A DNA stretch of 64,000 nt. It comes from an uncultured Pelagibacteraceae bacterium. Lineage in GTDB: Bacteria; Pseudomonadota; Alphaproteobacteria; Pelagibacterales; Pelagibacteraceae. The translations under genes and the position numbers were made by a program. The notes below the pieces were generated by a model, which was given only the letters and a program-made list of their open reading frames with translations, had not been told where the DNA came from and searched no databases. This document shows positions 20,773-35,982 of the stretch, in pieces (the first letter of the stretch is position 1; the number at the start of each line of letters is the position of its first letter). The DNA lies in contig CACGXV010000005.1 in the NCBI GenBank assembly GCA_902577075.1, forward strand, positions 1-64,000, given 5' to 3'.

Positions 20773-22166
20773 TGGCTGATAAATTTGATGTTACAGTAAT
20801 TGGTGGTGGTCCTGCAGGATACGTTTGTGCTATAAGATTGGCTCAATTAGGCCTAAACACTGCATGTATTGAGTCAAGAGGATCTTTAGGAGGAACTTGT
20901 TTGAATATTGGATGTATACCATCAAAAAGTTTATTAAATCTATCTGAGAATTTTCATAAAGCTAAAAACTTTGCCAATATTGGTATTGAGACAGGTGAGA
21001 TAAAATTAAATTTAAATAAAATGATGGAGAATAAAGAAAAATCTGTATCAACTTTAACAAAAGGCGTGGAATTTTTGTTTAAAAAAAATAAGGTTACATA
21101 CATTAAAGGGACCGGAACACTAAAGACAAAAGATGAAATATTAGTAAAAAATAATAATCAAGAAACAAAAATAAAATCTAACAAAATAATAATTAGTACT
21201 GGTTCAGCCCCTTTACCTCTTCCTGGTATAGAGTTTGATGAAAAGCAAATATTATCTTCTACTGGTGCATTATCTATTTCTAAGTTACCAAAAAAAATGA
21301 TTGTCGTAGGTGGTGGATATATTGGTTTAGAAATGGGATCAGTTTGGTCGCGATTGGGAACTGAAGTACAAGTTGTAGAGTATCTTGATCATATTACTCC
21401 AGGATTAGATAAAGAAATTTCTAACGAGTTTATGAAAATTTTGAAAAAACAAAATATTAAATTTGATTTGAATACCAAGGTTGAAAAAATTTCTAAAAAT
21501 AGTGAAGGAGTTGTAGTAGAAATTTCAAACGAAGGAAAAAAAAGCAAGTTAGAAGCTGACGTGGTTCTTATTTCAGTGGGTCGAAAACCTTATACTGATA
21601 ATTTAAATTTAGATAATATTGGTGTTAGTCTGGATCAAAAAGGAAGAATTAAAGTTGATAAAAATTTTGAGACAAATATAAAAAATATTTATGCAATAGG
21701 TGATGTAATAGATGGTCCTATGCTAGCGCATAAAGCCGAAGAAGAGGGTATCGCTGTTGCAGAACTTATTGCAGGTCAATCTGGACATGTTAATTATAAC
21801 TTGATACCAGGAGTAATATATACGTCCCCAGAAGTTGCTTATGTAGGTGAAAATGAGGAGCAGCTGAAAGAAAAAAATATCAATTATAAAATTGGAAAAT
21901 TTCCTTTCATGGCAAATTCAAGAGCTAAGGCAATAAATGAACCTGAGGGGTTTGTAAAAATATTAGCTGATAGCTCAACAGATCGTGTTTTAGGTGTTCA
22001 TATTATTGGTCCACATGCAGGGGAAATGATTGCAGAGATGTCTATTGCAATGGAATTTGGTGCTAGTTCAGAGGATATTGCAAGAACTTGTCATGCTCAC
22101 CCAACTTTTTCAGAGGCTATTAAAGAGGCAGCATTATCTGTAGATAAAAGACAGATACACTCTTAA
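20772..22166 (+). CDS. lpdA: Dihydrolipoyl dehydrogenase
   Basis: GGTCLNIGCIPSKSLLN redox motif; HAHPTFSEAIKEAAL C-terminus. Confidence 0.97.
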   Translation: MADKFDVTVIGGGPAGYVCAIRLAQLGLNTACIESRGSLGGTCLNIGCIPSKSLLNLSENFHKAKNFANIGIETGEIKLNLNKMMENKEKSVSTLTKGVEFLFKKNKVTYIKGTGTLKTKDEILVKNNNQETKIKSNKIIISTGSAPLPLPGIEFDEKQILSSTGALSISKLPKKMIVVGGGYIGLEMGSVWSRLGTEVQVVEYLDHITPGLDKEISNEFMKILKKQNIKFDLNTKVEKISKNSEGVVVEISNEGKKSKLEADVVLISVGRKPYTDNLNLDNIGVSLDQKGRIKVDKNFETNIKNIYAIGDVIDGPMLAHKAEEEGIAVAELIAGQSGHVNYNLIPGVIYTSPEVAYVGENEEQLKEKNINYKIGKFPFMANSRAKAINEPEGFVKILADSSTDRVLGVHIIGPHAGEMIAEMSIAMEFGASSEDIARTCHAHPTFSEAIKEAALSVDKRQIHS

Positions 22167-22173
22167 AATCCCA

Positions 22174-22220
22174 TATTATCCTATATATTCTTAAATTGTC
22201 CTTGGTAATAAAGGATAATA
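22174..22220. repeat. Inverted repeat / hairpin downstream of lpdA
   Basis: TATTATCCT (22174-22182) and exact reverse complement AGGATAATA (22212-22220); competing inner CCTT/AAGG stem; no clear U-tract follows. Confidence 0.5.
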
Positions 22221-22294
22221 GTAAATTTAGAAAAATTAATTAAATATTTTTTATTTGTTGTTATTAAAAGCTTTTTAAAACTTTCAATCTTAAT

Positions 22295-22352
22295 TTAATG
22301 GTTATCTTAATGGTAACGAGGTCAAAAACGCTATGGTAAATTAATGGTAACG
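22295..22352 (+). repeat. Iteron-like short direct repeats (TTAATGGTAACG)
   Basis: TTAATGGTTATC at 22295, TTAATGGTAACG at 22307, partial CTATGGTAAA at 22331, TTAATGGTAACG at 22341; ATGG cores spaced about 12, 23, 11 nt. Confidence 0.55.
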
Positions 22353-22454
22353 GGAGTGTATTGTTCTTTTATCGTCCTTGAGTGAAAGTTAAGCATTTTA
22401 ATTCTGCCATTATTGAACCAAAAAATAGACTTTAACTATTTCAATAATTAGTTT

Positions 22455-22901
22455 GTGCGATCAGTTATACTTTTATTTCTAATAATTATTTCGCAACCTT
22501 TATCCAGAGCAGATCATATTTCAAAAGAAGGAGTGTTTAAAAATGATCCTGTGTATCACAACAATAATAAATTTATTCTTAGCTGTAAGTATGGAAAATC
22601 TGGAAAATATCATGTGATACTTGATATCGATGGAGATAATGCAAATGTTTATAATATTAATAAGAACGAAGTTTATTATTTTAATGATGTTGAGGTATCA
22701 AATCCTAACACCAAATACAAAGGAGGCCATAAATGGAATATTTTATGGATAGGTGGCTATATAGCTGTGGAATTAAACTTATCAAGAATTCATTATGGTT
22801 ATGCATCAAAAAAGGAAGTGCCTAACGGTAAGGATTTATATGGTCCTTGTATTGAAATAGAACAGGTAAAAGCTGAAAATATATCCAAAAGATTTAATTA
22901 G
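22455..22901 (+). CDS. Hypothetical secreted protein (N-terminal signal peptide)
   Basis: GTG-start ORF with hydrophobic N-terminus MRSVILLFLIIISQPLSRA; no recognised domain. Confidence 0.6.
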   Translation: MRSVILLFLIIISQPLSRADHISKEGVFKNDPVYHNNNKFILSCKYGKSGKYHVILDIDGDNANVYNINKNEVYYFNDVEVSNPNTKYKGGHKWNILWIGGYIAVELNLSRIHYGYASKKEVPNGKDLYGPCIEIEQVKAENISKRFN

Positions 22902-22928
22902 ATAGTTTAAGCAATTAGACTCTCTGTT

Positions 22929-22946
22929 CAAGATTTGGTAATCTTG
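22929..22946 (+). promoter_or_regulatory. Hairpin directly upstream of the GTG start of the next ORF
   Basis: CAAGATT-TGGT-AATCTTG perfect 7-bp stem, extendable with wobble pairs to about 22949; start codon at 22951. Confidence 0.5.
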
Positions 22947-22950
22947 GATT

Positions 22951-23190
22951 GTGAAAAATGTTACACCTGAAAACATTCTAACTAAATTTTTAAATAGTAT
23001 AAAACTTCACTGGCGATTATATCTTTGTCTTATAATTGTTGTAGGATCTAATTTTCTAACTGAGTTTATAGATAGTAAATATGATGGTGATCTTATAGCT
23101 CTTATTGTTTTTATTACTTATTCAGCAATTATTTATTTATTTTTTGGAGGATATACTCAACATTATTATAATCAGAATAAAAAAAAATAA
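22951..23190 (+). CDS. Small two-TM hypothetical membrane protein
   Basis: 79-aa ORF with two hydrophobic segments (LYLCLIIVVGSNFL, LIALIVFITYSAIIYLFFGG); stop overlaps next start (TAATG). Confidence 0.6.
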   Translation: MKNVTPENILTKFLNSIKLHWRLYLCLIIVVGSNFLTEFIDSKYDGDLIALIVFITYSAIIYLFFGGYTQHYYNQNKKK

Positions 23191-23582
23191 TGGCCTATAT
23201 TAAACTTGTAATATTTGAAATTAAAGAAAACATGGGCACAGCCAAAATCGATAATGTTGAATTTGATAATTGTGAATGGGGTTGGTTGGTTAAAGATGAG
23301 GAGTTAGAAAAAATAAATGTAGATGGAGAAACTGAATTTAGAGCACTACTTCACCCCGATGAAGCAACAAAAAGATTTGAGAAAAATATTACTGATTTTG
23401 AAGCCACGAAAATATCGGAAGAGAGATATGCAAAGTGGTACCCAGAAAATACAGAAAAACCAGATCATGATTTTTTAAAGAGGAGAAAAAGCGATTTCGA
23501 ATTATTTGAAAAACTTATTTATGATAAAAGAGTATTAAGGATTATTTTTCATAAATATTGGTATGAAAGTGGGTTAAATTGA
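23190..23582 (+). CDS. Hypothetical protein
   Basis: 130-aa ORF, stop/start overlap with both neighbours; no recognised domain. Confidence 0.6.
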   Translation: MAYIKLVIFEIKENMGTAKIDNVEFDNCEWGWLVKDEELEKINVDGETEFRALLHPDEATKRFEKNITDFEATKISEERYAKWYPENTEKPDHDFLKRRKSDFELFEKLIYDKRVLRIIFHKYWYESGLN

Positions 23583-23701
23583 AAGATAAATTTAAATTGG
23601 AATTAAAAGCATTATGGAAGTTAAGAGGTTGGATACTTTTGTTAATTATTGTCCCAATCTTATTAAATATATTTTTTGATGTGAGAATACCTATATTTTA
23701 A
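23579..23701 (+). CDS. Small single-TM membrane protein (40 aa), below the ORF-track cutoff
   Basis: TTG start overlapping the upstream TGA (TTGA); translation MKDKFKLELKALWKLRGWILLLIIVPILLNIFFDVRIPIF; ends 1 nt before the next ATG at 23703. Confidence 0.5.
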   Translation: MKDKFKLELKALWKLRGWILLLIIVPILLNIFFDVRIPIF

Positions 23702-23702
23702 A

Positions 23703-24215
23703 ATGGCTAAAGCTCAAACTACAGGACGTATAGGGGAATTGTCAGTTGAATTAGAACTCACTAGTAGAAATTGGCTAGTTGGTAACTTCAACTCAAATAT
23801 ACAAAATGCAGCTGTTTATGATTTATTTGCTGTTAAAAAAAATAACAAGAAACTTATAAGAGTAAAGTCATATAGTTTATTTGACGGTGATAAAGGCACC
23901 ATTCAATACACATCACGAAAAACAGGTGAAATATTTTTAGATCTATTAAAAGATAATAAAGATGATTTTGTAATACTATGTGGTGTTAGCAACGGTAAAG
24001 TGAAAGAATACTTTATCCTTCCAACTTTAGTTGTCGATAAAACATTAAAAGAATCTAATAGAATTTATCATTTAGGTAAAAAAAGAGACGGTTCTAAACG
24101 TAAAGTTACATCACATAGAGCAATATTTCTTCAAGAAAGCAAAGATCATTACTGGTGTGGTTGGAGAAGAAAATGGAACAAGTATCTAAATAATTGGGAT
24201 ATACTTGAAAAATAA
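23703..24215 (+). CDS. Putative PD-(D/E)XK-like endonuclease
   Basis: GRIGELSVELELTSRNW...AAVYDLFAVKKNNKKLIRVKS fits an E...D...xVK nuclease core. Confidence 0.6.
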   Translation: MAKAQTTGRIGELSVELELTSRNWLVGNFNSNIQNAAVYDLFAVKKNNKKLIRVKSYSLFDGDKGTIQYTSRKTGEIFLDLLKDNKDDFVILCGVSNGKVKEYFILPTLVVDKTLKESNRIYHLGKKRDGSKRKVTSHRAIFLQESKDHYWCGWRRKWNKYLNNWDILEK

Positions 24216-24219
24216 AATC

Positions 24220-24828
24220 ATGGCTAAAATAGTTTATATTCTTACCAATCAATCTATGCCCGATACTATTAAATTAGGGATCACAGACAATCTTGAAAGT
24301 AGAATGAAGCAATTAGACAATACTTCAACTCCTTTACCTTTTGAATGTTATTATGCGGTTGAAGTTCAAGATGCAAAAGCAATTGAGAAGAAAATTCATG
24401 AAGGGTTAGACGATAAAAGAATTAGACAAAGTAGAGAATTTTTTAATGCCACTCCAGAACAAGCAAAAGCGATATTGGAAATCGCTGAATTAATGGGCGG
24501 TAAAAATGTTACTCCTACAGAAGACGTTGTAGAAACAGCACAAGATAAGCAGGCTTTAGATAATGAGAGAAAAAGAAGAAGCAACATAGATTATTTTGGA
24601 ATTCTTGGAATACCAAAAGGTACAATTTTAACTTTTTCCAAAGACAAAAGTATAACTTGTGAAACAGCTAACGATGGTAAAGTTATTTTTAGGGGACAAG
24701 AAACTTCACTTTCTGGCTCTGCATTAACAGTAACTAATGAAATGGGCTATGACTGGGGACGAGTTCAAGGATCAGGTTATTGGTGTTATAAAGGAAAAAC
24801 ATTGAGAGATTTAGTTGCTGAACAGTAA
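24220..24828 (+). CDS. GIY-YIG (T5orf172/MUG113-like) nuclease-domain protein with C-terminal RAMA/DUF4357-like domain
   Basis: N-term VYILTNQSMPDTIKLGITDNLESRMKQLDNTSTPLPFECYYAVEV; C-term FGILGIPKGTILTFSKDKSITCETANDGKVIFRGQETSLSGSALTV...GYWCYKGKTLRDL. ATG at 24220 preferred over the upstream TTG at 24205. Confidence 0.72.
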   Translation: MAKIVYILTNQSMPDTIKLGITDNLESRMKQLDNTSTPLPFECYYAVEVQDAKAIEKKIHEGLDDKRIRQSREFFNATPEQAKAILEIAELMGGKNVTPTEDVVETAQDKQALDNERKRRSNIDYFGILGIPKGTILTFSKDKSITCETANDGKVIFRGQETSLSGSALTVTNEMGYDWGRVQGSGYWCYKGKTLRDLVAEQ

Positions 24829-24831
24829 TCA

Positions 24832-24873
24832 ATGAAAAAACTTTTATCGATCGTGTTTCTTAGTAATTTATAA
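24832..24873 (+). pseudogene. Possible signal-peptide remnant (MKKLLSIVFLSNL*)
   Basis: ATG at 24832 encodes a lysine-rich/hydrophobic leader that stops after 13 codons. Confidence 0.3.
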
Positions 24874-25428
24874 ATTTGCATCATTCATTTGTTTACATTG
24901 CCTGTGAGCCTCTAAAACAGAGGGTACAAGTTTATCTAACTTCCAATTGTTAACTCTAACATCAAAATAGTTTGCTGCTTTAAAATCTATACCATCAACG
25001 ATTTCAATCTCATACTTTTGAAATTCATCATAAAATTCCTTTAAAAAGTAGATGTAATCTCTGATGGGAAATGTACCAAGACTAAAAGACACTCTGTATC
25101 CCATTAAGAAAGGAGAAACACTCATTACGTTTGCTGTTAACTCAGCTCCGTTTAATTTAATAGGAATGTTTTTATCTACTAACTGTTTAATGTCGCCTGG
25201 TTTTTCATACGTGTAGAAAGTAAAATTATTATAAACTTTTGAACAATCATCATTTTTTGAGATAAAAAAGTTTAGACTATCGCCGTGTGTTACTTCTCCA
25301 GAAACCCTTGCAAAAGTTAAATCTTTAAATCTATCTATTTTCCATTCTTCTTCAGCTTGTGCTTGATATGCAAAGACAATAAAAAATAGTAATAAGTGTG
25401 ATAAAATAATAAGCAGAACTCTCTTCAT
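24868..25428 (-). CDS. Hypothetical secreted protein
   Basis: 186-aa ORF with signal peptide MKRVLLIILSHLLLFFIVFAYQAQA. Confidence 0.6.
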   Translation of the reverse strand: MKRVLLIILSHLLLFFIVFAYQAQAEEEWKIDRFKDLTFARVSGEVTHGDSLNFFISKNDDCSKVYNNFTFYTYEKPGDIKQLVDKNIPIKLNGAELTANVMSVSPFLMGYRVSFSLGTFPIRDYIYFLKEFYDEFQKYEIEIVDGIDFKAANYFDVRVNNWKLDKLVPSVLEAHRQCKQMNDANL

Positions 25429-25610
25429 GATTTGAGCTCCACTTTGTATCCGTGTTTCCTAAATATTTTTATGATCTTATCCCAGACTAAGCTGTTATGT
25501 TCTCCTGGTTTTATTTCAAATTTAAATGATTGTTTATATACGGGGCTACAGTTGTCGTATGCAATGTATGTATTCACGTGACAATACTTACAAACACGGT
25601 TTATTTCCAT
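25425..25610 (-). CDS. Small hypothetical protein with N-terminal CxxC
   Basis: 61-aa ORF MEINRVCKYCHVNTYIAYDNC...; overlaps the start of the next ORF by 4 nt. Confidence 0.45.
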   Translation of the reverse strand: MEINRVCKYCHVNTYIAYDNCSPVYKQSFKFEIKPGEHNSLVWDKIIKIFRKHGYKVELKS

Positions 25611-25674
25611 ATATTAGAACTCCTAAGGTTGGTTGATTTTTTTAAGGTTAAAAGTTTATAGTTAGTAATAGACT

Positions 25675-25770
25675 CAATCCTTTTCTGCTTACTCGAATTA
25701 CGCAACAAGGGAGATAATAAAAAAAGCGGAATACGATAGAAAAGGATTGAAATCCAATGCATTCAGTAAG
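25675..25770 (+). ncRNA. Candidate structured RNA / interleaved inverted repeats (pseudoknot topology) upstream of the zinc-finger/WYL-helicase operon
   Basis: A=CAATCCTTTTCT (25675-25686) with A'=AGAAAAGGATTG (25738-25749), perfect 12 bp; B=CTTACTCGAAT (25688-25698) with B'=ATTCAGTAAG (25761-25770), one bulge; order A-B-A'-B'. Alternative inner pairing ATTACGC (25697-25703)/GCGGAAT (25726-25732). Confidence 0.4.
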
Positions 25771-25866
25771 AAAACATATGTAATTGTTTTTATTAGGTCG
25801 GAAAATTGTTCGAAAAAAGAATTTTACAATTAATTACAACTGACAAAAATTATGTTAATTTTTTAG

Positions 25867-26610
25867 ATGTCTTATACGAAGCCCTGTAATAAATGTGGTC
25901 AAAGAATAAGCTTAAGACAAATGCCTGCAGGACAGTGGGTTGCTTTTGATGTCTCAACTGAAGATCAACATGTTTGTGGCGTTCAAAATGCACCAGATAT
26001 TTCAATTAAAATTAAAGGAAAGAAAAAAAAGGAACCACAAGAAGAAGAAACTATTGATTTAGGTTATGATGGTTCTGATTTAGAAATTGAAGAAGAGGAT
26101 GATATTGATGAAATACAAAATGAAAATAATACTTACGACACCACTTCTGGAATTCATAAATGTATAGATAAATCAATCAAAAAACAAAAAAGAATACTTA
26201 TTGATTATTTCAGTGAATATAATGGGGAAAATACTCAAAGAGAAATTAGTCCGATTAAAAAGTTTAAATATAAAAACAAAACTTACCTGCAAGCTTATTG
26301 CCATAAAAGAAAGGCTGAGAGAAATTTTTTAACAAGAAGCATAGAAACAGCAAAAGAAATTGACAAAAAAAGAACCAAAATTAAATTTGGAAAACCCAAA
26401 ACAAAATTTTTAGAAAATCAAAGCAAAAAAGATGAAGATGAAAATGAAAGTAATAGATATAAATCAAAAAAAATTATTAATGAGAATGGTTTTCGTGAAA
26501 CAAGTAGAGAAGTAGATACATCTTCCCAAACACCCGTATGGTTATATATAATAATTGCTGTAATTGTGATGGGTCTAGCAAGAGGTTTTCTAATTCCATT
26601 AATGGATTAA
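25867..26610 (+). CDS. N-terminal zinc-finger + WYL-like domain + C-terminal TM protein
   Basis: CNKCGQRISLRQMPAGQWVAFDVSTEDQHVCG; WYL-like IDYFSEYNGENTQREISPIKKFKYKNKTYLQAYCHKRKAERNFLTRSIETA; C-term WLYIIIAVIVMGLARGFL. Confidence 0.65.
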   Translation: MSYTKPCNKCGQRISLRQMPAGQWVAFDVSTEDQHVCGVQNAPDISIKIKGKKKKEPQEEETIDLGYDGSDLEIEEEDDIDEIQNENNTYDTTSGIHKCIDKSIKKQKRILIDYFSEYNGENTQREISPIKKFKYKNKTYLQAYCHKRKAERNFLTRSIETAKEIDKKRTKIKFGKPKTKFLENQSKKDEDENESNRYKSKKIINENGFRETSREVDTSSQTPVWLYIIIAVIVMGLARGFLIPLMD

Positions 26611-29600
26611 ATGTCAGAAAAAGAAAAAAAAAATGATCAGGATTTTTCAATTATTGAAAACTTTGTTTCTGCTTTAAACATAGAATTCGAAGAAGCAAAA
26701 AAAAGAAATGTTGAAAAACAAATTGTTCTTGAAAATGGTGAAAGAGGAGAACAATTAGGTAGCAAATATTTATATACCTTTTTTTTAGATCAAGATTTAA
26801 GGATTGGCAGAGCTAAGGATGATATGCCTGTTCAGCTTTTGATTGGTGATGAAAGTGTAGATGCAACGGTTGTTTCAGTTGCTGAAAAAAAAGTTATTAT
26901 TTCATCAGATAGAGACTTTGGACCAATATTACATCAAGCAACATTAAAAATAGATAATTCCTACTTAATTGAAAAACTGAAAAAAGTTTATGAAGAATAT
27001 TTAGAAACTAAAGAGGGTAAAATAAACTTAGATACTCTTAAAAAAACTTTATTTTTAAAAAAAGGAAATGTCTCTGAGGAAAAACCTAGTATCAAAAAAG
27101 ACACTTTAAATGATGAACAATTCCAGGCTGTAAAAACTTCTCTGGGTAGTGATATTGTTTACATTTGGGGACCACCTGGAACAGGAAAAACTCACTGTAT
27201 ATCTAAAGTAATAGAGGCTTTTTATTACGAAAAAAAAAAGGTTTTATTAGTTTCAAATACAAATGCTGCAGTTGATATTGTTGTAAAGAATTTAGGGGAT
27301 CGACTTTATAAAAAAGATAAAGATTTCAACGAAGGAAGTGTTTTAAGGTATGGAGACATAGTCAACGAAACCCTGAAAAATAAATATGGAGAATATGTAA
27401 ATGTTGATAGGGCAGCAGAAAGACTAAGTCAAAAACTAATTGAACAAAGAAAAATAATAGAAAAACTAGTAGAACAATTAAATCAAAAAGCTGAACCTCA
27501 TAAAAAAATAATTGAAGCTTTTAACACTATTACTCAATTTGATTCTCAATATCAAAATTTAAATCAGAGAAGAAAAGATATGGAAGGTTTCTTGGAAAGA
27601 GCCAATCAGATGATTGAAGATGCAAACTTATCGATCAAAAATTACAATAAATTAATTAAAGAATATGAAAATAAAGGATTTTTTGGAAAGATGTTTTCTG
27701 AAGATCCTGAAGATCAAGAAAGAAAGATTAATTCCAAAAAAGGAATAATTGAGAATATTAATGAAAAGAAAAAAACTTATCCCGTTGAATTAAAGAAGGT
27801 AAAAATTCAAATTTATGATCTAGAGAAGAAAATAGAGAAAAGTCAAAAAATTGTTGTTGGAAAAAACTTCGAAAAAGAAAATCAATCTCTACAAAAGTAT
27901 TTAGAAAAAATAGATACTCACACTATTGAGATAAAAAATATCAATGACCAAATACAAGAAGTCAAAATAGAAGTTTTAAAAAATTGCAGAGTCTTGGCTG
28001 CTACTGCAACAAAAACATATTTGAAACCTGAAGATTTTTCTGAATATGATGTTGTTATTATTGATGAAGCTTCAATGCTTATCCTTCCCCAAGCAGCCTA
28101 TGCCGCAAGTCTCTCAAGGGAAAAAGTAGTTTTGGCAGGCGATTTTATGCAGTTACCACCAATCATTACCACAGACGATAAGCATTCTAATTACGATATT
28201 GTAGAGAAATACCTAGGCCATGCTTTTGATTTTATTAATGTAGAAAAACTAATTTCTAAAAAAACTAACAACATTATTACTTTAAAAAGACAGTATAGAA
28301 TGAATGAAAAGATTTGTTCTTTAATAAATAAATATTTCTATGATGGTAATTTAATTACAGATGTAAGTGTAAAAGATAAAAAATATCCAAAATTAATTAA
28401 TAATAATTTAATTTTGATAGATACAGCAAGTGCAATTCCATTTTGTCAAATGCCAGCTGAAGGTTCTAGGTATAATTTAGTCCATGCTGCGGCAGTTAGA
28501 AATTTGTGTGTTTATTTAAAAGACCAAGGTTTAATTAAAGATGTAACTTCAGTAGGTGTTACAACGCCATATAAAAGACAACAAGTTACAATCGATGATT
28601 TATTAAAAGAACATTCTCTTAATGATGTAGTTACCGGTACTGTTCATAGATTTCAAGGTGATCAAAAAGATATTGTTATATTCGATATACCAGATAGCGA
28701 AGGTGTTTTTCCATCACCATTAATTGAAGCTGCATCAAGTAGAGATTCTGGAGCAAAATTAATGAATGTAGCTTTTAGCAGATCAAAAGATATCTTAATT
28801 GTTTTTGCTAATGTTGCTTATTTACAAGAAAGATTATCACCAACTTCTATATTAAGAAACTTGATTGTTGATATTCAAAATCGTGGAAAAATAATTGACT
28901 TAAAAGAAATAATTAAACTTGGTCCATTCACATTACCTTCAAGACCAAAAACTTCACCACAAACTAAAATTGATATTAAAGACGATGAAGCAGGTTGGTA
29001 TGATGAAAATAATTTTGAAAAACCTTTTGAAAAAGATTTAAAAAAAGCCAAAAAATCAATCGTAATATTTTCAGCATTTTGTACTGAGAAAAGAACTGCA
29101 TATTGGGGTGATATCCTAAGACAAAAAAAAGAAGAAGGTGTAAAAATTAGAGTTGTAACAAGAGGTCCAGTTAATCAAGGGGCTACCTTAAAAGAGACAG
29201 CAACTTTAGCATTGAAGAGTTTAATAAAATTGAAAATAAATGTAGATTTGAGAAGAGATATTCATCACAAAATGGTGTTTATTGATGATGATGTTGTTTG
29301 GAGTGGATCTTTAAATGTTTTGTCTTACGGAGGTAATTCGACACAAGCAGAAACTTTTATAAGATTCACAAGTAAAGCTTTTGCACAAAGAGCAGCCAGA
29401 AACTCAATTTATAAATCACAAATATTAGAGTCTGAAAAAGATAAAAAAATTGATTTACTTTCAATGTTAGCTGAAAGAGAAAACAGAGATTGTGAAAAGT
29501 GTGGAAAATTAACTGAAGTTTGGTTTAGAAAGAAAGGGGGTCGTGCACCATTTTTAAAATGTATTAATTGCAGCAATCTTCAAGATTTTAAAAAAAGAGC

Positions 29601-29805
29601 AGGAAGAACAAATGCTGGATATGAAAATACTGACTCAAAAGGCAGATCTAAAATGACAGCAGCTATTGAAGAAGAAATTAGATATTGTCCTAAACATGAT
29701 GAAAAAGTCGAGCTAGTATTAAAGAGAAGTAGATATGGACCATTTTATTCTTGTTCAAAATGGAAACGAGATAAATCAGGATGTAATTATACTGAAAAAG
29801 TTTGA
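26611..29805 (+). CDS. SF1 (Upf1/Dna2-like) helicase fused to PLD-family nuclease and C-terminal zinc ribbons (type II Mokosh-like)
   Basis: Walker A GPPGTGKTH, DVVIIDEASM, GDFMQLPPI, SVGVTTPYKRQ, GTVHRFQGDQKDIVIFD, SRSKDILIVF; PLD motif HHKMVFIDDDVVWSGSLN; CEKCG...CINC and CPKHDEKVELVLKRSRYGPFYSCSKWKRDKSGC. Confidence 0.88.
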   Translation: MSEKEKKNDQDFSIIENFVSALNIEFEEAKKRNVEKQIVLENGERGEQLGSKYLYTFFLDQDLRIGRAKDDMPVQLLIGDESVDATVVSVAEKKVIISSDRDFGPILHQATLKIDNSYLIEKLKKVYEEYLETKEGKINLDTLKKTLFLKKGNVSEEKPSIKKDTLNDEQFQAVKTSLGSDIVYIWGPPGTGKTHCISKVIEAFYYEKKKVLLVSNTNAAVDIVVKNLGDRLYKKDKDFNEGSVLRYGDIVNETLKNKYGEYVNVDRAAERLSQKLIEQRKIIEKLVEQLNQKAEPHKKIIEAFNTITQFDSQYQNLNQRRKDMEGFLERANQMIEDANLSIKNYNKLIKEYENKGFFGKMFSEDPEDQERKINSKKGIIENINEKKKTYPVELKKVKIQIYDLEKKIEKSQKIVVGKNFEKENQSLQKYLEKIDTHTIEIKNINDQIQEVKIEVLKNCRVLAATATKTYLKPEDFSEYDVVIIDEASMLILPQAAYAASLSREKVVLAGDFMQLPPIITTDDKHSNYDIVEKYLGHAFDFINVEKLISKKTNNIITLKRQYRMNEKICSLINKYFYDGNLITDVSVKDKKYPKLINNNLILIDTASAIPFCQMPAEGSRYNLVHAAAVRNLCVYLKDQGLIKDVTSVGVTTPYKRQQVTIDDLLKEHSLNDVVTGTVHRFQGDQKDIVIFDIPDSEGVFPSPLIEAASSRDSGAKLMNVAFSRSKDILIVFANVAYLQERLSPTSILRNLIVDIQNRGKIIDLKEIIKLGPFTLPSRPKTSPQTKIDIKDDEAGWYDENNFEKPFEKDLKKAKKSIVIFSAFCTEKRTAYWGDILRQKKEEGVKIRVVTRGPVNQGATLKETATLALKSLIKLKINVDLRRDIHHKMVFIDDDVVWSGSLNVLSYGGNSTQAETFIRFTSKAFAQRAARNSIYKSQILESEKDKKIDLLSMLAERENRDCEKCGKLTEVWFRKKGGRAPFLKCINCSNLQDFKKRAGRTNAGYENTDSKGRSKMTAAIEEEIRYCPKHDEKVELVLKRSRYGPFYSCSKWKRDKSGCNYTEKV

Positions 29806-29808
29806 CAC

Positions 29809-30261
29809 TCAATCAGACACACAACGACTTAAGGCGAAAAGATTTAAAACAATTACAAAAACCCAAAAATAAAACTCAAAACCTTTCTTTTTAGGATTTC
29901 TGTATGTATTAAAGTTCTCTGTTTTATAATTTGATATTGGTTCAATTTCTATATCTTCATCATTTTTGTTTTTTTCATTTGTGTAATTTACAACTTCGTT
30001 TGTTTTTAAATTTTCTAATCTTTCTTCAAGCACTTCAATTTCTTTATCAATTTCACTTTCATATCCAAGATCTATAATATCATCATCTTCTACCTTATTT
30101 TTTTGCTTAGCTAATTTCTTTATTGCAGGATCAGCTTTATTTTTCTTCCCACATTTGTGTGGTTTTTCAGTAGAGACATCAAAAGCAACCCATTGACCAG
30201 CTCGCATTTCTCTCATGCTTATTCTTTCCCCACATTTGTTGCATGGTCTTATGTAAGCCAT
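29809..30261 (-). CDS. Zinc-finger + coiled-coil + C-terminal TM protein, paralogue of 25867..26610
   Basis: MAYIRPCNKCGERISMREMRAGQWVAFDVSTEKPHKCG near-identical to the N-terminus of 25867..26610; shared IDLGY linker; C-term TM FYFWVFVIVLNLFAL. Confidence 0.65.
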   Translation of the reverse strand: MAYIRPCNKCGERISMREMRAGQWVAFDVSTEKPHKCGKKNKADPAIKKLAKQKNKVEDDDIIDLGYESEIDKEIEVLEERLENLKTNEVVNYTNEKNKNDEDIEIEPISNYKTENFNTYRNPKKKGFEFYFWVFVIVLNLFALSRCVSD

Positions 30262-30446
30262 TAATTATTTCTTTTCGATCTGGTTTCCTCGTTTATTTTT
30301 CTTCCATATTCTCTGATTTGCATTCTCTCAATTGCTTGAAGTGATTTTTCTTCTTTAATTCTCTTATTTCTTCTGATTATCGCAATTATGAATAGAATGA
30401 TTAAAGATTTTCCTAAAAATAAAAAAACAATTGCGCTCGTTTCCAT
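30261..30446 (-). CDS. Small single-TM hypothetical protein
   Basis: 61-aa ORF METSAIVFLFLGKSLIILFIIAIIRRNKR; start overlaps the neighbour's ATG region by 1 nt. Confidence 0.5.
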   Translation of the reverse strand: METSAIVFLFLGKSLIILFIIAIIRRNKRIKEEKSLQAIERMQIREYGRKINEETRSKRNN

Positions 30447-30448
30447 AA

Positions 30449-31318
30449 TTAAAAATTCTTAATCCTTTTCGCTAAACTTGATATACCAGTTACATTAGAT
30501 ATGTTTTCAGCCTGTTTAGATATATTTTCTTTGAACCAATTATAAATTTCAGAAACATCTAATTTTTTGAGAGATTTTTTTATACTTACTGCAACTGCTA
30601 AGCCAACAATAATACCAATTAGAGGACTTGAAAATAAACTTGCTGTCATGATAAATGACCCCATTCCAACAAAACCTTTAATAGTACCTGACTTAAATTT
30701 GTTTTTATTCTTATTTTGAGTGTATGATTTTGCTAGAGACACGATTGAGATGATTAACAAAATCGGATTTGCTCCTACTGCACCCGCTAAACCAAGTGAA
30801 GCACATAATTCTGCAAATTCCTCTTTATCTTTTTTTTTCCATCCAAAGAAAAGTGCCACGACACCCAAGGTTGAGCTAAAAACCTCCAGTAAATTTACAG
30901 ACTGAAGGTCATATAGCCAACTTTTTTTTATAAAGAATTTTTCACTTATGATTGAAGCCAATTTATCATATGAAGCTTTATCTTCTATATTGTGCAAGGG
31001 TATACCCATTGGAGTTTGAAGATCTTTAGCCATAGAAATAAAATAATTTTTTAATTCTTCGATATTGCTATCATTTGGAAGTGTGTTTTTCACTTTTTCC
31101 CACATTAAAATAGGGGAATGACTATGATCAAACATTCTATGCAGATAAGAAGCTATTCCAGTATCATTATAGAATTTGTCAATCGCTTCATCATAAACTG
31201 ATGGCGTTTCATCAATTATTTTGGAGAAAAATTTTTCAAGCTGTTTACCGTATGGAACAGCTAACAAACCTGACAAACCAATTGAAAATTTATTTGTTAA
31301 GTTTTTAAAGATTTTCAC
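30449..31318 (-). CDS. Hypothetical multi-pass membrane protein
   Basis: 289 aa with several hydrophobic helices in the C-terminal half; soluble N-terminal domain DHSHSPILMWEKVKNTLPNDSNIEELK. Confidence 0.65.
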   Translation of the reverse strand: MKIFKNLTNKFSIGLSGLLAVPYGKQLEKFFSKIIDETPSVYDEAIDKFYNDTGIASYLHRMFDHSHSPILMWEKVKNTLPNDSNIEELKNYFISMAKDLQTPMGIPLHNIEDKASYDKLASIISEKFFIKKSWLYDLQSVNLLEVFSSTLGVVALFFGWKKKDKEEFAELCASLGLAGAVGANPILLIISIVSLAKSYTQNKNKNKFKSGTIKGFVGMGSFIMTASLFSSPLIGIIVGLAVAVSIKKSLKKLDVSEIYNWFKENISKQAENISNVTGISSLAKRIKNF

Positions 31319-31556
31319 TGTTATAGATTAACAAATCCTAAAGAATGAGACAATATAGTTAAATCTTACTTCATGTACGCTTCAAAGAAAGAGCTTTTAA
31401 ATTTAATTGACCATATATTAGATTTAAAATAGATTCTAAACAGTATTGGAATTATCAATTAAACTTTATGATTAACCTAAGTTTAATAGTCTATTCATGG
31501 TACAGAAAGATGGAAGCATATAGTGCGTTTAGAATTATTGTTTATCAACAGAAATA

Positions 31557-31584
31557 GAGCGGTATCAAAAACACCGATACGCTC
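31557..31584 (+). promoter_or_regulatory. Hairpin upstream of the SGNH-like gene
   Basis: GAGCGGTATC-AAAAACACC-GATACGCTC, 9 pairs with one bulged G. Confidence 0.4.
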
Positions 31585-31601
31585 TTAAAATATGATTAAA
31601 T

Positions 31602-32750
31602 TTGCTGATGATATTAAAATTTAATATTATCTTAAAGATCATAACTTTTGCTGCTATTTTTTTATTAATTGATTTGTTTTTTACAAAGTTTTTTTTTTCA
31701 AAAATTTTAATTGGGAACTTAGAAAATGTTTACTCTCAAGATTTACAAAACAGAATTCCAAATAAATATTATAAATACACATTTAGAAAAAATGTTGAAT
31801 TCTTGTCAAAGTACAAAGATACTATTTATAAAATACATACAAACGATTTAGGTTTTAGGGACTCTTCAACCGGTAATTTAGATAGATCTCAAGAATACAA
31901 TATACTTATTGGAGATAGTTTTGTTGAGGGCGTTGGATTGAATTATTTCGAGACAATTGGTTATAAATTAAATGAAATTAATGGTGAAAATTTTTTTTTA
32001 AATGGAGGTGTTTCTTCATATTCACCCTACATTTACAACAAAAAAATTATAACTATTTTATCAAATAATAAAAATTTAAAAGTAAGAAGGGTTCTGCTTT
32101 TTTTTGATAAAAGTGATCCTATAGATGACTTTAAAAATAATTTCCATGAACTGCCAGTAGAATTTTCTTTAGTGAATGAAGCTCCAAAATATAAAAAACA
32201 TTTGTCTGAAAAATTCATATCTTTATTATTCTTTAAAAAATTTAGTAATTTTCTAGAAGAGCAACTTAGAAGTTTAAAATATAGATATCAACTTACAAAT
32301 ATTACTAATGAAAACTTTTTTAGCTTTAGCCAAAACCAAGTTAATGCCTTTAAGTCAATTGGAAATAGAAAATCTATAACTAATTGGTATACCAATAAGA
32401 ATAAATGGGAGGATGAGACCAAAAAAAATTTATTGTTTTCAATCAAACAAATTGAGGATTTAAATAGTTATTTAAAATTTTTGAATATTGATTTAGTTGT
32501 AGTTTTATATCCTTGGGCTTATGAACTCTACGATAATAATACAGCTCAAATTTATGAAAAATTTATTACAAGAAAGTTTGTAGAAAAAAATATAAAAATT
32601 ATTAATTGTTATAAAAGTTTTAGAAAAAAAAATATATTGGATCAATTAGAGTTTATAGGACAAAGTTTTCAGTTTGCTGACATTCATTATAATAATTTAG
32701 GAAACCAGACAATTTCTGAATGTATAACGAAACATCTTAGTCAAAGTTAA
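31602..32750 (+). CDS. SGNH/GDSL-hydrolase-like membrane-anchored protein
   Basis: N-term TM; ILIGDSFVEGVGL (GDS block), LNGGVSSYSPYIY, ADIHYNNLGNQ (D-x-x-H block). Start may be ATG 31608. Confidence 0.65.
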   Translation: MLMILKFNIILKIITFAAIFLLIDLFFTKFFFSKILIGNLENVYSQDLQNRIPNKYYKYTFRKNVEFLSKYKDTIYKIHTNDLGFRDSSTGNLDRSQEYNILIGDSFVEGVGLNYFETIGYKLNEINGENFFLNGGVSSYSPYIYNKKIITILSNNKNLKVRRVLLFFDKSDPIDDFKNNFHELPVEFSLVNEAPKYKKHLSEKFISLLFFKKFSNFLEEQLRSLKYRYQLTNITNENFFSFSQNQVNAFKSIGNRKSITNWYTNKNKWEDETKKNLLFSIKQIEDLNSYLKFLNIDLVVVLYPWAYELYDNNTAQIYEKFITRKFVEKNIKIINCYKSFRKKNILDQLEFIGQSFQFADIHYNNLGNQTISECITKHLSQS

Positions 32751-32805
32751 AATTGATTAAATATAATTTGACAGCTAACATGATATCTTAATTTAAGAAA
32801 AACTT

Positions 32806-33960
32806 ATGATTAATTACAAAACAACAAAATTGTTAATTTATTTATTTTTATTTGTTTGCACTGTTAATCATATTTTTTTTAGCTATAGATTATTTATTAG
32901 AGAAAATGGATATATCCTCGGAGACTGGTTAATAAATTATGGAGGGGGATTTACTAGAAGAGGGTTATTTGGTGAAATAATAATCTATTTATCAAAAAAT
33001 TTGGATATTAACTTAATTAAATTAACTTTTATTATATTTTGCATATTTTACGTTTATTTTATTTTTTTGATATACAAAATAATATCTAGGAGTAACATTA
33101 ATTTCTTAACTCTATTACTAATTTTATCTCCATCTACATTCCTATTTTCATTTTATGATCCATTAGCAGCAGGAAGAAAAGAATTTTTATTTTTCATATT
33201 CTTTTGTTTATATTTTTTGTATCGCGAAAAAAAAATATTTATTTACTCTTCTCCGATTATAGCAACTGGCATTATTTTAACTCATGAATTGTTTATATTC
33301 CTTTGCCCTCTTTTTTTTATAGCAAGGTATCTTAAAACAAAAAGTTTAAGATTTAGAGATTATAATTTAGAGATTTTGATTTCCTGCTTATCAATTTTAA
33401 TTTTAATATTTTTATTTAAATTAAGTAATCCAAATATACAAAACACATGCGAAGCAATCAAAAATTTTGGTTATGATTGGAGAATTTGCTTTTCAGTAAA
33501 TGACTTAAATACATTTAGGGACTCTGGGAGAATTATTTCTGAATATATTATAAACAAAAATTATATTTTTTATTACTCATTGTTTTTAATTTTATCACTA
33601 ATACCAATATTACTTTGTTTAAAGAAGTTTTATAATTTTAAAATTTACACTTCATTATTGTTTATATTTATTTCATTAATACCAATATGTAGCTTATTCT
33701 TTTTAGTAAATGATTGGGGACGATATATCCACATATATATTTATGTTTGGATGTTGATATTTTTGTCATACACCAAAATAAAAGAAATTAATTTAAGTTA
33801 TGCAAAGGTTTTAGTATTGTTGTTATATTCTTCGTCTTGGTATATACCCCATTGCTGTCCTGAAATACACTTTTCAAAGCATAAATTTAAACCTGGTATT
33901 TTATATATTTATGAAAGGATCCATTTAAGATTCACAACAGAAAATACCATGTATAAATAG
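32806..33960 (+). CDS. Polytopic membrane protein (possible surface-polysaccharide glycosyltransferase or polymerase-like)
   Basis: 384 aa, around ten hydrophobic segments; adjacent to the SGNH-like gene. Confidence 0.5.
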   Translation: MINYKTTKLLIYLFLFVCTVNHIFFSYRLFIRENGYILGDWLINYGGGFTRRGLFGEIIIYLSKNLDINLIKLTFIIFCIFYVYFIFLIYKIISRSNINFLTLLLILSPSTFLFSFYDPLAAGRKEFLFFIFFCLYFLYREKKIFIYSSPIIATGIILTHELFIFLCPLFFIARYLKTKSLRFRDYNLEILISCLSILILIFLFKLSNPNIQNTCEAIKNFGYDWRICFSVNDLNTFRDSGRIISEYIINKNYIFYYSLFLILSLIPILLCLKKFYNFKIYTSLLFIFISLIPICSLFFLVNDWGRYIHIYIYVWMLIFLSYTKIKEINLSYAKVLVLLLYSSSWYIPHCCPEIHFSKHKFKPGILYIYERIHLRFTTENTMYK

Positions 33961-34026
33961 TGAAAAAATTTAATTAAAGATCTGTTAAAAAATTAGAATA
34001 ACTCATAATATATTTTATAATTTTTT

Positions 34027-35982
34027 ATGAAATATCCAGTTCTTTTACCAAATATTTTTAATTATCCATTTACTTACAAGAGTAATTTAAATTTAAAAAT
34101 TGGAGAGTATGTAAAGGTTTCGTTTGGTAAATCTCAAATTACTGGAGTAATTTGGGATAATTTTGAAAAAAATGATAATAAAAGTTTTAAAATAAAAGAA
34201 ATTGATAAAAGATTAAAGATCAAACCTCTAAAAAAGGAAACAATAAAGTTTTTAAATTGGTTTTCTGAATACAATTTAGTTCCTAAAGGTATGTCTTTAA
34301 AATTACATTTGTTAAGCGGTGAAGCTATCGAAAATTTTGATGACAAAGAATATAATTTTTTTTTAAAACGAGATACTATTAAAGAATTTAAGCTATCTGA
34401 AGATCAAAATAAAATTTTAAATGAGTTAAAAAATAAAGATAATAAATTTAGGGTTCATTTATTACAAGGAACGACTGGTTCTGGAAAAACCATTGTATAT
34501 TTTAAACATATATTTGAAATTTTAGAAAAAAAACAGCAAGCCTTAATACTACTGCCTGAAATTGGATTAACAGCTGAATTTGAAAAAAAATTTAAGGAAT
34601 TTTTTGGATTTAATCCATCTGTTTGGCATTCTGGGATAAGTCAAAAAAGAAAAAAAGTAATTTGGAGTGGTCTATCATCTGGAAAAATAAAAGTTGTAAT
34701 TGGAGCTAGATCATCTTTGTTTTTACCTTTTAAGAATATAGGTTTAATAATTGTCGATGAGGAACATGATCAATCTTTCAAACAAGATGAGGGAGTAATT
34801 TATAATGCTAGAGATATGGCCATCTCAAGAGCAAAATTTGAGAATATTCCTATTAATTTAGTTACTGCTGTTCCATCAATAGAAACTTATTCAAACTTTA
34901 AAAAAAATAAGTATTCAGGTTCTAGGCTATTAAAAAGATATAAAGAAGCAAATTTACCCTCTTACGAAATAATAGATCTTAATTTAAATAAGCTTAATAA
35001 AAATTCTTGGATATCAAATAAAACTATAGAAAAAGTAAAAGAGCATTTAATTAAAAAAGATCAAATATTATTTTTTATCAATAGAAGAGGTTTTGCACCA
35101 TTTGCTTTATGTAAAAATTGTTTAAATGTATATTCTTGTCCAAATTGCTCAATTAATCTTGTCTTTCACAAAAACAAAAAAAAACTTTTATGTCATTACT
35201 GTGGCTTTAAAAGTGATCTTAAAAGAAATTGTAAAAAAGGTAATGAATGTGATCTAGTTTTTAGTGGAAGCGGTGTTGAAAGAGTTGCTGAGGAAGTAAA
35301 ATTATTATTTCCTGACAAAAAAATTTCAATATTTTCAAGTGACACAATGAGTAAAAAATCTTCTGTAGAAAAACTAAATCAAATAGTTAATGGCGAAATT
35401 GATATTTTAGTAGGTACTCAATTAATTTCAAAAGGTTTTCATTTTCCTAAATTGAATTGTATTGTTGTGTTAGATATTGATTTAACATTAAATGGTCACG
35501 ACTTAAGAGCGGCAGAAAAAAATTTACAACTCTATCATCAACTTTCAGGAAGAGCTGGCAGAGCAGGCAAACCTGCAACAGTATATTTTCAAACTTTTGG
35601 AAAAAATCAAAAAATAATTAGTCAAATTACAGATCCTGATCCATTCATATTTTTAGATAATGAGCTTAAATTAAGAAAAACTCATAATTTACCTCCTTTT
35701 GAAAGATTTGTATCTTTAATTTTGACATCTCCTAAAGAATTAAAATTAGAGCAAGAGTCTAATAATCTTAAGAATTATTTGGTAAATAATCTAGATGATC
35801 GAGTTCTAGGACCTGTTAGTGCACCTATCTATAAAGTTAGGGGAAGATATAGAAATCGATTACTTATTAGATCTAATAAAAATAGAAAAATACAGAGAAA
35901 ACTAAGTCAAATATTGAATAATTATAAATTACCAAAAGAAATAAAACTGACAGTTGATGTTGACCCAATATCTTTCAATTAA
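34027..35982 (+). CDS. priA: Primosomal protein N' (replication restart helicase)
   Basis: LLQGTTGSGKTIVYF, VDEEHDQSFKQDEG, zinc CKNCLNVYSCPNCSINLVFH...LCHYCG, QLSGRAGRAGKPA. Confidence 0.95.
   Translation: MKYPVLLPNIFNYPFTYKSNLNLKIGEYVKVSFGKSQITGVIWDNFEKNDNKSFKIKEIDKRLKIKPLKKETIKFLNWFSEYNLVPKGMSLKLHLLSGEAIENFDDKEYNFFLKRDTIKEFKLSEDQNKILNELKNKDNKFRVHLLQGTTGSGKTIVYFKHIFEILEKKQQALILLPEIGLTAEFEKKFKEFFGFNPSVWHSGISQKRKKVIWSGLSSGKIKVVIGARSSLFLPFKNIGLIIVDEEHDQSFKQDEGVIYNARDMAISRAKFENIPINLVTAVPSIETYSNFKKNKYSGSRLLKRYKEANLPSYEIIDLNLNKLNKNSWISNKTIEKVKEHLIKKDQILFFINRRGFAPFALCKNCLNVYSCPNCSINLVFHKNKKKLLCHYCGFKSDLKRNCKKGNECDLVFSGSGVERVAEEVKLLFPDKKISIFSSDTMSKKSSVEKLNQIVNGEIDILVGTQLISKGFHFPKLNCIVVLDIDLTLNGHDLRAAEKNLQLYHQLSGRAGRAGKPATVYFQTFGKNQKIISQITDPDPFIFLDNELKLRKTHNLPPFERFVSLILTSPKELKLEQESNNLKNYLVNNLDDRVLGPVSAPIYKVRGRYRNRLLIRSNKNRKIQRKLSQILNNYKLPKEIKLTVDVDPISFN

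Follow-up and report, generated by a model that had tools for sequence, protein, structure and literature searches.

A Mokosh-like helicase-nuclease and an abutting, predicted membrane-anchored zinc-finger/WYL partner in a SAR11 island: a candidate anti-phage module

A helicase followed by a PLD nuclease in one chain is the described layout of type II Mokosh defence (PMC11672841). WYL domains, for their part, are known as fusions to SF1 helicases, Mrr nucleases and TerB (PMC4012209). The WYL1 protein binds ssRNA and boosts Cas13d (PMC9122601, PMC6547453), and the WYL domain of a bacterial PIF1 helicase is described as binding ssDNA and coupling the ATPase to unwinding (PMC9122601). For streamlined oligotrophs such as SAR11, few dedicated defence genes have been reported, with surface variation acting against phages instead (PMC12143481). 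Here, we analyze a stretch of 64,000 nucleotides from an uncultured Pelagibacteraceae bacterium (GCA_902577075.1, contig CACGXV010000005.1, positions 1 to 64,000; hereafter the window), in which a helicase-nuclease gene is directly preceded by a gene encoding a zinc-finger/WYL protein with a C-terminal TM segment.

The helicase-nuclease gene (26611..29805, plus strand) encodes 1064 amino acids, consisting of an SF1 helicase (Upf1/Dna2-like), a PLD nuclease domain and two C-terminal zinc ribbons. The Pfam matches to AAA_11 (4e-31), AAA_12 (3e-27) and PLDc_2 (2e-13) place a COG1112-like SF1 helicase and a PLD domain in the same protein. The Walker A motif is found at residue 187, motifs II, III, V and VI are present, and a long, mostly helical insert separates motifs Ia and II. 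The catalytic motif of HKD (PLD) nucleases, HxKx4Dx6GSxN, is present as a canonical single copy at residues 885-902 and is kept in all four orthologues. The zinc ribbons, assigned by motif, correspond to two four-ligand sites at residues 961 and 1026. The best PDB matches are DNA2 and NAM7/Upf1. The AlphaFold models, built from 4 and 3 sequences, have mean pLDDT values of 37 and 39 (36.9 for the model with the PLD region), too low for a fold or an interface to be read from them; we attribute this low confidence to the small number of homologues, which are few outside SAR11.

The partner gene (25867..26610, plus strand) encodes 247 amino acids, arranged as an N-terminal zinc finger, a charged linker, a WYL domain (residues 100-163) and a C-terminal TM segment (residues 228-246). 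The WYL assignment comes from the Pfam profile PF13280 (E=1.3e-10; 41.6 bits vs a cutoff of 21.8), and the partner profile also matches PafBC/PafC and another WYL protein, with a best E-value of 5e-6 (PafBC). At the motif level, the zinc finger is of the CxxC...HxC type (PCNKCGQRIS..GQWVAFD..H.C). The TM segment is the only hydrophobic segment in the hydropathy profile and lies at the extreme C-terminus, and the protein is therefore predicted to be tail-anchored. A domain search of the partner for HTH or ribbon-helix-helix domains found neither. According to the ORF coordinates in the window, the TAA of the partner directly abuts the ATG at 26611. The first-pass annotation had proposed this junction, the SF1 motifs, PLD HxK motif and two C-terminal zinc segments of the larger protein, and the zinc finger, WYL domain and TM segment of the smaller one, all of which are borne out by the present analysis. 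Absent from its account of the locus is a second zinc-finger protein of 150 amino acids (29809..30261, minus strand), a paralogue of the partner with 44% identity to its residues 1-132 (E=7e-25), which has a C-terminal TM segment by hydropathy and lacks the WYL domain.

Among 298 Pelagibacterales genomes, a full-length match to the helicase occurs in one, namely the window's own, the remaining matches being weak and located in the helicase core. Scans at the class and phylum levels (386 and 294 genomes) returned no full-length relative, the partial matches falling mostly in the helicase core, and a tblastn search of plasmids with the PLD and zinc-ribbon part gave no match. Three full-length orthologues with 78-79% identity were located by a genome contig search in SAR11 single-cell genomes (L032, L033 and L034), where they sit at a chromosomal site different from that of the window, near tRNA-Thr, rlmB and tufA. 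In L033, the WYL partner abuts the helicase exactly and the downstream zinc-finger/TM gene is present as well. L032 has the exactly abutting partner without the downstream gene, and L034 has the downstream gene without the WYL partner, which shows that neither is indispensable. In this small sample, in which three of the four loci come from close kin, partner and helicase are linked in three, and at least one zinc-finger/TM gene is found in all four. Two findings that the first-pass annotation had named as counting against its proposal, a housekeeping helicase fixed in SAR11 and a lack of conserved linkage with the upstream gene, are thus at odds with the one occurrence in 298 genomes and with the linkage at three of the four loci, respectively.

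The partner orthologues in L032 and L033 are 75-89% identical to the window partner, and comparison of partner and helicase with their counterparts in the window gives dN/dS values of 0.08-0.16. By gene, dN/dS amounts to 0.03-0.10 in the helicase, 0.16-0.17 in the partner and 0.25-0.45 in the second zinc-finger gene. With all values below 1, the module genes are, on this measure, under purifying selection, which is weakest for the second zinc-finger gene. Considering the identities of partner and helicase, the low dN/dS and the exact abutment in both partner-bearing loci, the gene pair is more than a chance arrangement. Between the window and L032, the dS of the partner genes is 0.29 and that of the helicase genes 1.4, a difference that points to recombination within the module.

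In the window, the module lies in an accessory island of 11.86 kb between lpd and priA (22167..34026). In the nearest relative (G088), whose lpd is 97% identical, the lpd-priA gap measures 19 bp, i.e., the island is absent. The occurrence of the module at two chromosomal sites, the empty site in the closest relative and the rarity of the gene among the 298 genomes suggest accessory behaviour, in keeping with the earlier placement in an accessory island. On these sequence comparisons, the DNA island that carries the module looks mobile. A domain search of the island ORFs found no integrase, and a look for direct repeats at the island borders gave none that would make a convincing attachment site. 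Viewed across the genus (22166-34027 of the window vs L078, L079 and L080), the lpd-priA interval is an insertion hotspot, being empty in G088 and G080 (a 19-bp gap in both), occupied by other cargo of about 5.3 kb in G068, and by 11.9 kb in the window.

The island also contains a GIY-YIG (T5orf172) gene (24205..24828, plus strand), which matches the PADLOC candidate defence family PDC-S57 with E=2e-68 and T5orf172 with 4e-18. It is an island neighbour that the first-pass annotation did not mention, and none is seen at the orthologous loci. A 186-residue protein with a signal-peptide-like N-terminus (24868..25428, minus strand) accompanies the module at two of the orthologous loci, L032 and L033, where its counterparts are 67-76% identical and dN/dS is about 0.1 where computable. 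Its gene is overlapped by that of a small protein of 61 residues (25425..25610, minus strand), also found in L032 (84% identity, dN/dS 0.105). Downstream of the module in L032, L033 and L034 are genes like the Mrr_cat (1e-9) and TerB (1e-5) genes of L032. Islands at such sites hold non-defence cargo too. As a separate observation, unrelated island genes share a leader that is near-identical at the DNA level, ATGAAAAAACTTTTAGGGATCGTGGTTCTGGG, encoding MKK(L/F)LGIVVLGLLL and followed by different mature sequences (L032:1594, L033:3381, L034:1224, L034:10936 and L080:932), a pattern resembling the transfer of a signal-peptide cassette from gene to gene. A search for this leader in the window's own genome did not find it.

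The helicase core, the intact HKD motif, the zinc ribbons, the abutting zinc-finger/WYL/TM partner, the second zinc-finger/TM protein, the island setting and the purifying selection together lead us to read the locus as a possible mobile module directed against phages (or mobile elements), with a helicase-nuclease held at the inner membrane as its core; we assign this reading a probability of roughly 0.45. Both the defence function and the mechanism are what we infer from gene content and analogy. The tail anchors would keep the zinc fingers at the membrane, on its cytoplasmic side, where the zinc finger may bind the helicase or its nucleic-acid substrate. By analogy with the known WYL proteins, the tail-anchored partner would sense a ligand at the membrane and recruit or activate the helicase-nuclease, the switch possibly being the binding of single-stranded DNA, RNA or a nucleotide signal by the WYL domain. 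The activated enzyme would then unwind the invading nucleic acid and cut it through a PLD dimer. The substrate may be either DNA or RNA, the closest solved helicases being DNA2 and Upf1/NAM7, and a position at the membrane would suit phage DNA entry.

We have also considered that the locus could simply be type II Mokosh (MkoC) with an unrelated membrane gene beside it. The domain order is identical, helicase then PLD (PMC11672841), and the PADLOC profiles do match the helicase-nuclease, MkoA being the best (194 bits, residues 57-754) and MkoC giving 157 bits over part of the model. However, true MkoC proteins of Agrobacterium and Arsenophonus reach 1240 and 1387 bits over the full length of the same MkoC profile. 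The closest relatives by BLASTP and tblastn are instead rare helicases encoded on plasmids in Aulosira, Nostoc and Cytobacillus, in which the N-terminal domain is also aligned, and none of the BLASTP alignments with MkoC or MkoA reaches this domain, which is common to the Aulosira and Cytobacillus proteins. In the helicase-core tree, which has only 16 rows and long branches and includes one of two Clostridia loci, the window clade is sister to Aulosira/Cytobacillus with a support of 100/99, and the AU test rejects its union with MkoC (p=0.0063). The two Clostridia loci were dismissed as relatives, since their SF1 helicases are of a different type, with a longest ORF of 1531 aa. An unrelated neighbour is, moreover, difficult to reconcile with a gene that is conserved and abuts exactly. 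MkoC identity at the family level is therefore disfavoured and this alternative is very unlikely; the partial profile score and the tree indicate a protein that is Mokosh-like in build but not MkoC. Of the earlier designation as a Mokosh-like locus, the layout of SF1 helicase and PLD in one chain thus stands, whereas the family membership does not.

Other readings accept the pair and assign it a different role. The zinc-finger/TM proteins could be antidotes or brakes that silence a toxic helicase-nuclease at the membrane and release it once they are disturbed by infection. The presence of at least one such gene per locus, either kind alone being sufficient, would fit this scenario, as would the stop-start abutment, which would couple synthesis. 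We nevertheless regard it as unlikely, because domain and profile searches found no match to a toxin-antitoxin family and the WYL domain suggests ligand sensing instead. WYL proteins often act as expression regulators. That the partner controls the expression of the nuclease gene is highly improbable here, given its single C-terminal TM segment, the lack of an HTH or ribbon-helix-helix domain in the search described above and the WYL-less paralogue at 29809..30261, even though WYL regulators do co-localise with defence systems (PMC9122601). A function in DNA repair or mobile-element maintenance rather than immunity would agree with DNA2 and Upf1-family helicases being the best PDB matches and with the non-defence cargo of islands. 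It is distinctly unlikely, considering that the module is missing from nearly all relatives, that neither an integrase nor convincing flanking repeats were detected in the searches of the island, and that candidate defence genes occur nearby (PDC-S57 in the island; Mrr_cat and TerB at the orthologous loci).

The zinc finger itself is also found beside other helicases. Its profile matches in two of the 298 Pelagibacterales genomes, the window's own and G135; no further carrier was found among 386 sampled alphaproteobacterial genomes, a scan whose sensitivity is limited by a first-look filter. In G135 (L089:5724-8847), a UvrD-type helicase gene, whose product ends in Cys-rich segments, is followed by a zinc-finger gene with a C-terminal TM segment, the stop codon and the next start being 10 nt apart. 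The operon resembles the window locus in pairing a zinc-finger/TM gene with an SF1 helicase that has a C-terminal Cys-rich segment, but the helicase belongs to the UvrD family and lacks the PLD domain, and the partner is downstream and lacks WYL. By eye only, the RPDF...YLEHFG stretch of this helicase resembles a PD-(D/E)XK nuclease motif. A Bradyrhizobium plasmid has an ORF for a proline-rich zinc-finger protein with several TM segments, ~95 bp from a UvrD-type gene that runs divergently. Every clear zinc-finger case found here, a small set of eight copies in total with six in the four orthologous loci, therefore adjoins an SF1 helicase. A Streptomyces match was rejected as weak (E=0.6). A small ORF on a Rhizobium gallicum plasmid (L087:2884-3225), which has a similar zinc finger that matches weakly (E=0.2), lies upstream of nucleotidyltransferase and SLATT genes. 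It is conceivable, if somewhat doubtful, that the system is defined by the zinc-finger/TM protein rather than by the helicase. Such proteins would form a family of membrane-bound adaptors, some equipped with a WYL sensor and others lacking it, which team up with SF1 helicases of unrelated kinds and turn them into membrane-localised immune nucleases independent of Mokosh. Its partners would then be the PLD-fused Upf1-like helicase in the window and, equally tentatively, the UvrD-type helicases of G135 and Bradyrhizobium.

If the locus is indeed a mobile defence module centred on the helicase-nuclease, such a compact unit in a SAR11 genome would be a concrete exception to the picture of few defence genes. 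Bringing the nuclease to the membrane by means of a WYL/zinc-finger adaptor would be a new activation route for Mokosh-like helicase-nucleases, and the recurring adaptor could be used to search for further systems beyond the reach of helicase profiles.

Compared with Mokosh type II (MkoC), the window protein shares AAA_11/AAA_12 and a C-terminal PLD domain in one polypeptide, with a collinear profile match from motif II to PLD; it differs in its separate clade, its other N-terminal domain, the two C-terminal zinc ribbons and the zinc-finger/WYL/TM partner. Mokosh type I (MkoA + MkoB) provides the best PADLOC match, but has the PLD on a separate gene and a kinase domain, as opposed to the single gene in the window, in which no kinase domain and no MkoB are found; an Oscillatoria locus (L090), with MkoA at 923 bits and an adjoining MkoB gene, represents the type I layout. 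The helicases of Aulosira laxa (BAZ78165) and Cytobacillus spongiae (WP_233811946) form the sister clade and share the N-terminal domain, and that of Aulosira also the C-terminal zinc-ribbon motifs, but both have lost the HKD residues (degenerate PLD), lack the long helical insert and have no adjacent zinc-finger/WYL/TM gene annotated. RspWYL1 of Cas13d and the PIF1 WYL domain likewise work with a nuclease or a helicase; the former is soluble and the latter fused, whereas the window partner combines its zinc finger with a TM anchor, and its ligand role is putative. The module would work like Mokosh type II, yet it belongs to a lineage of its own and is accompanied by a membrane partner.
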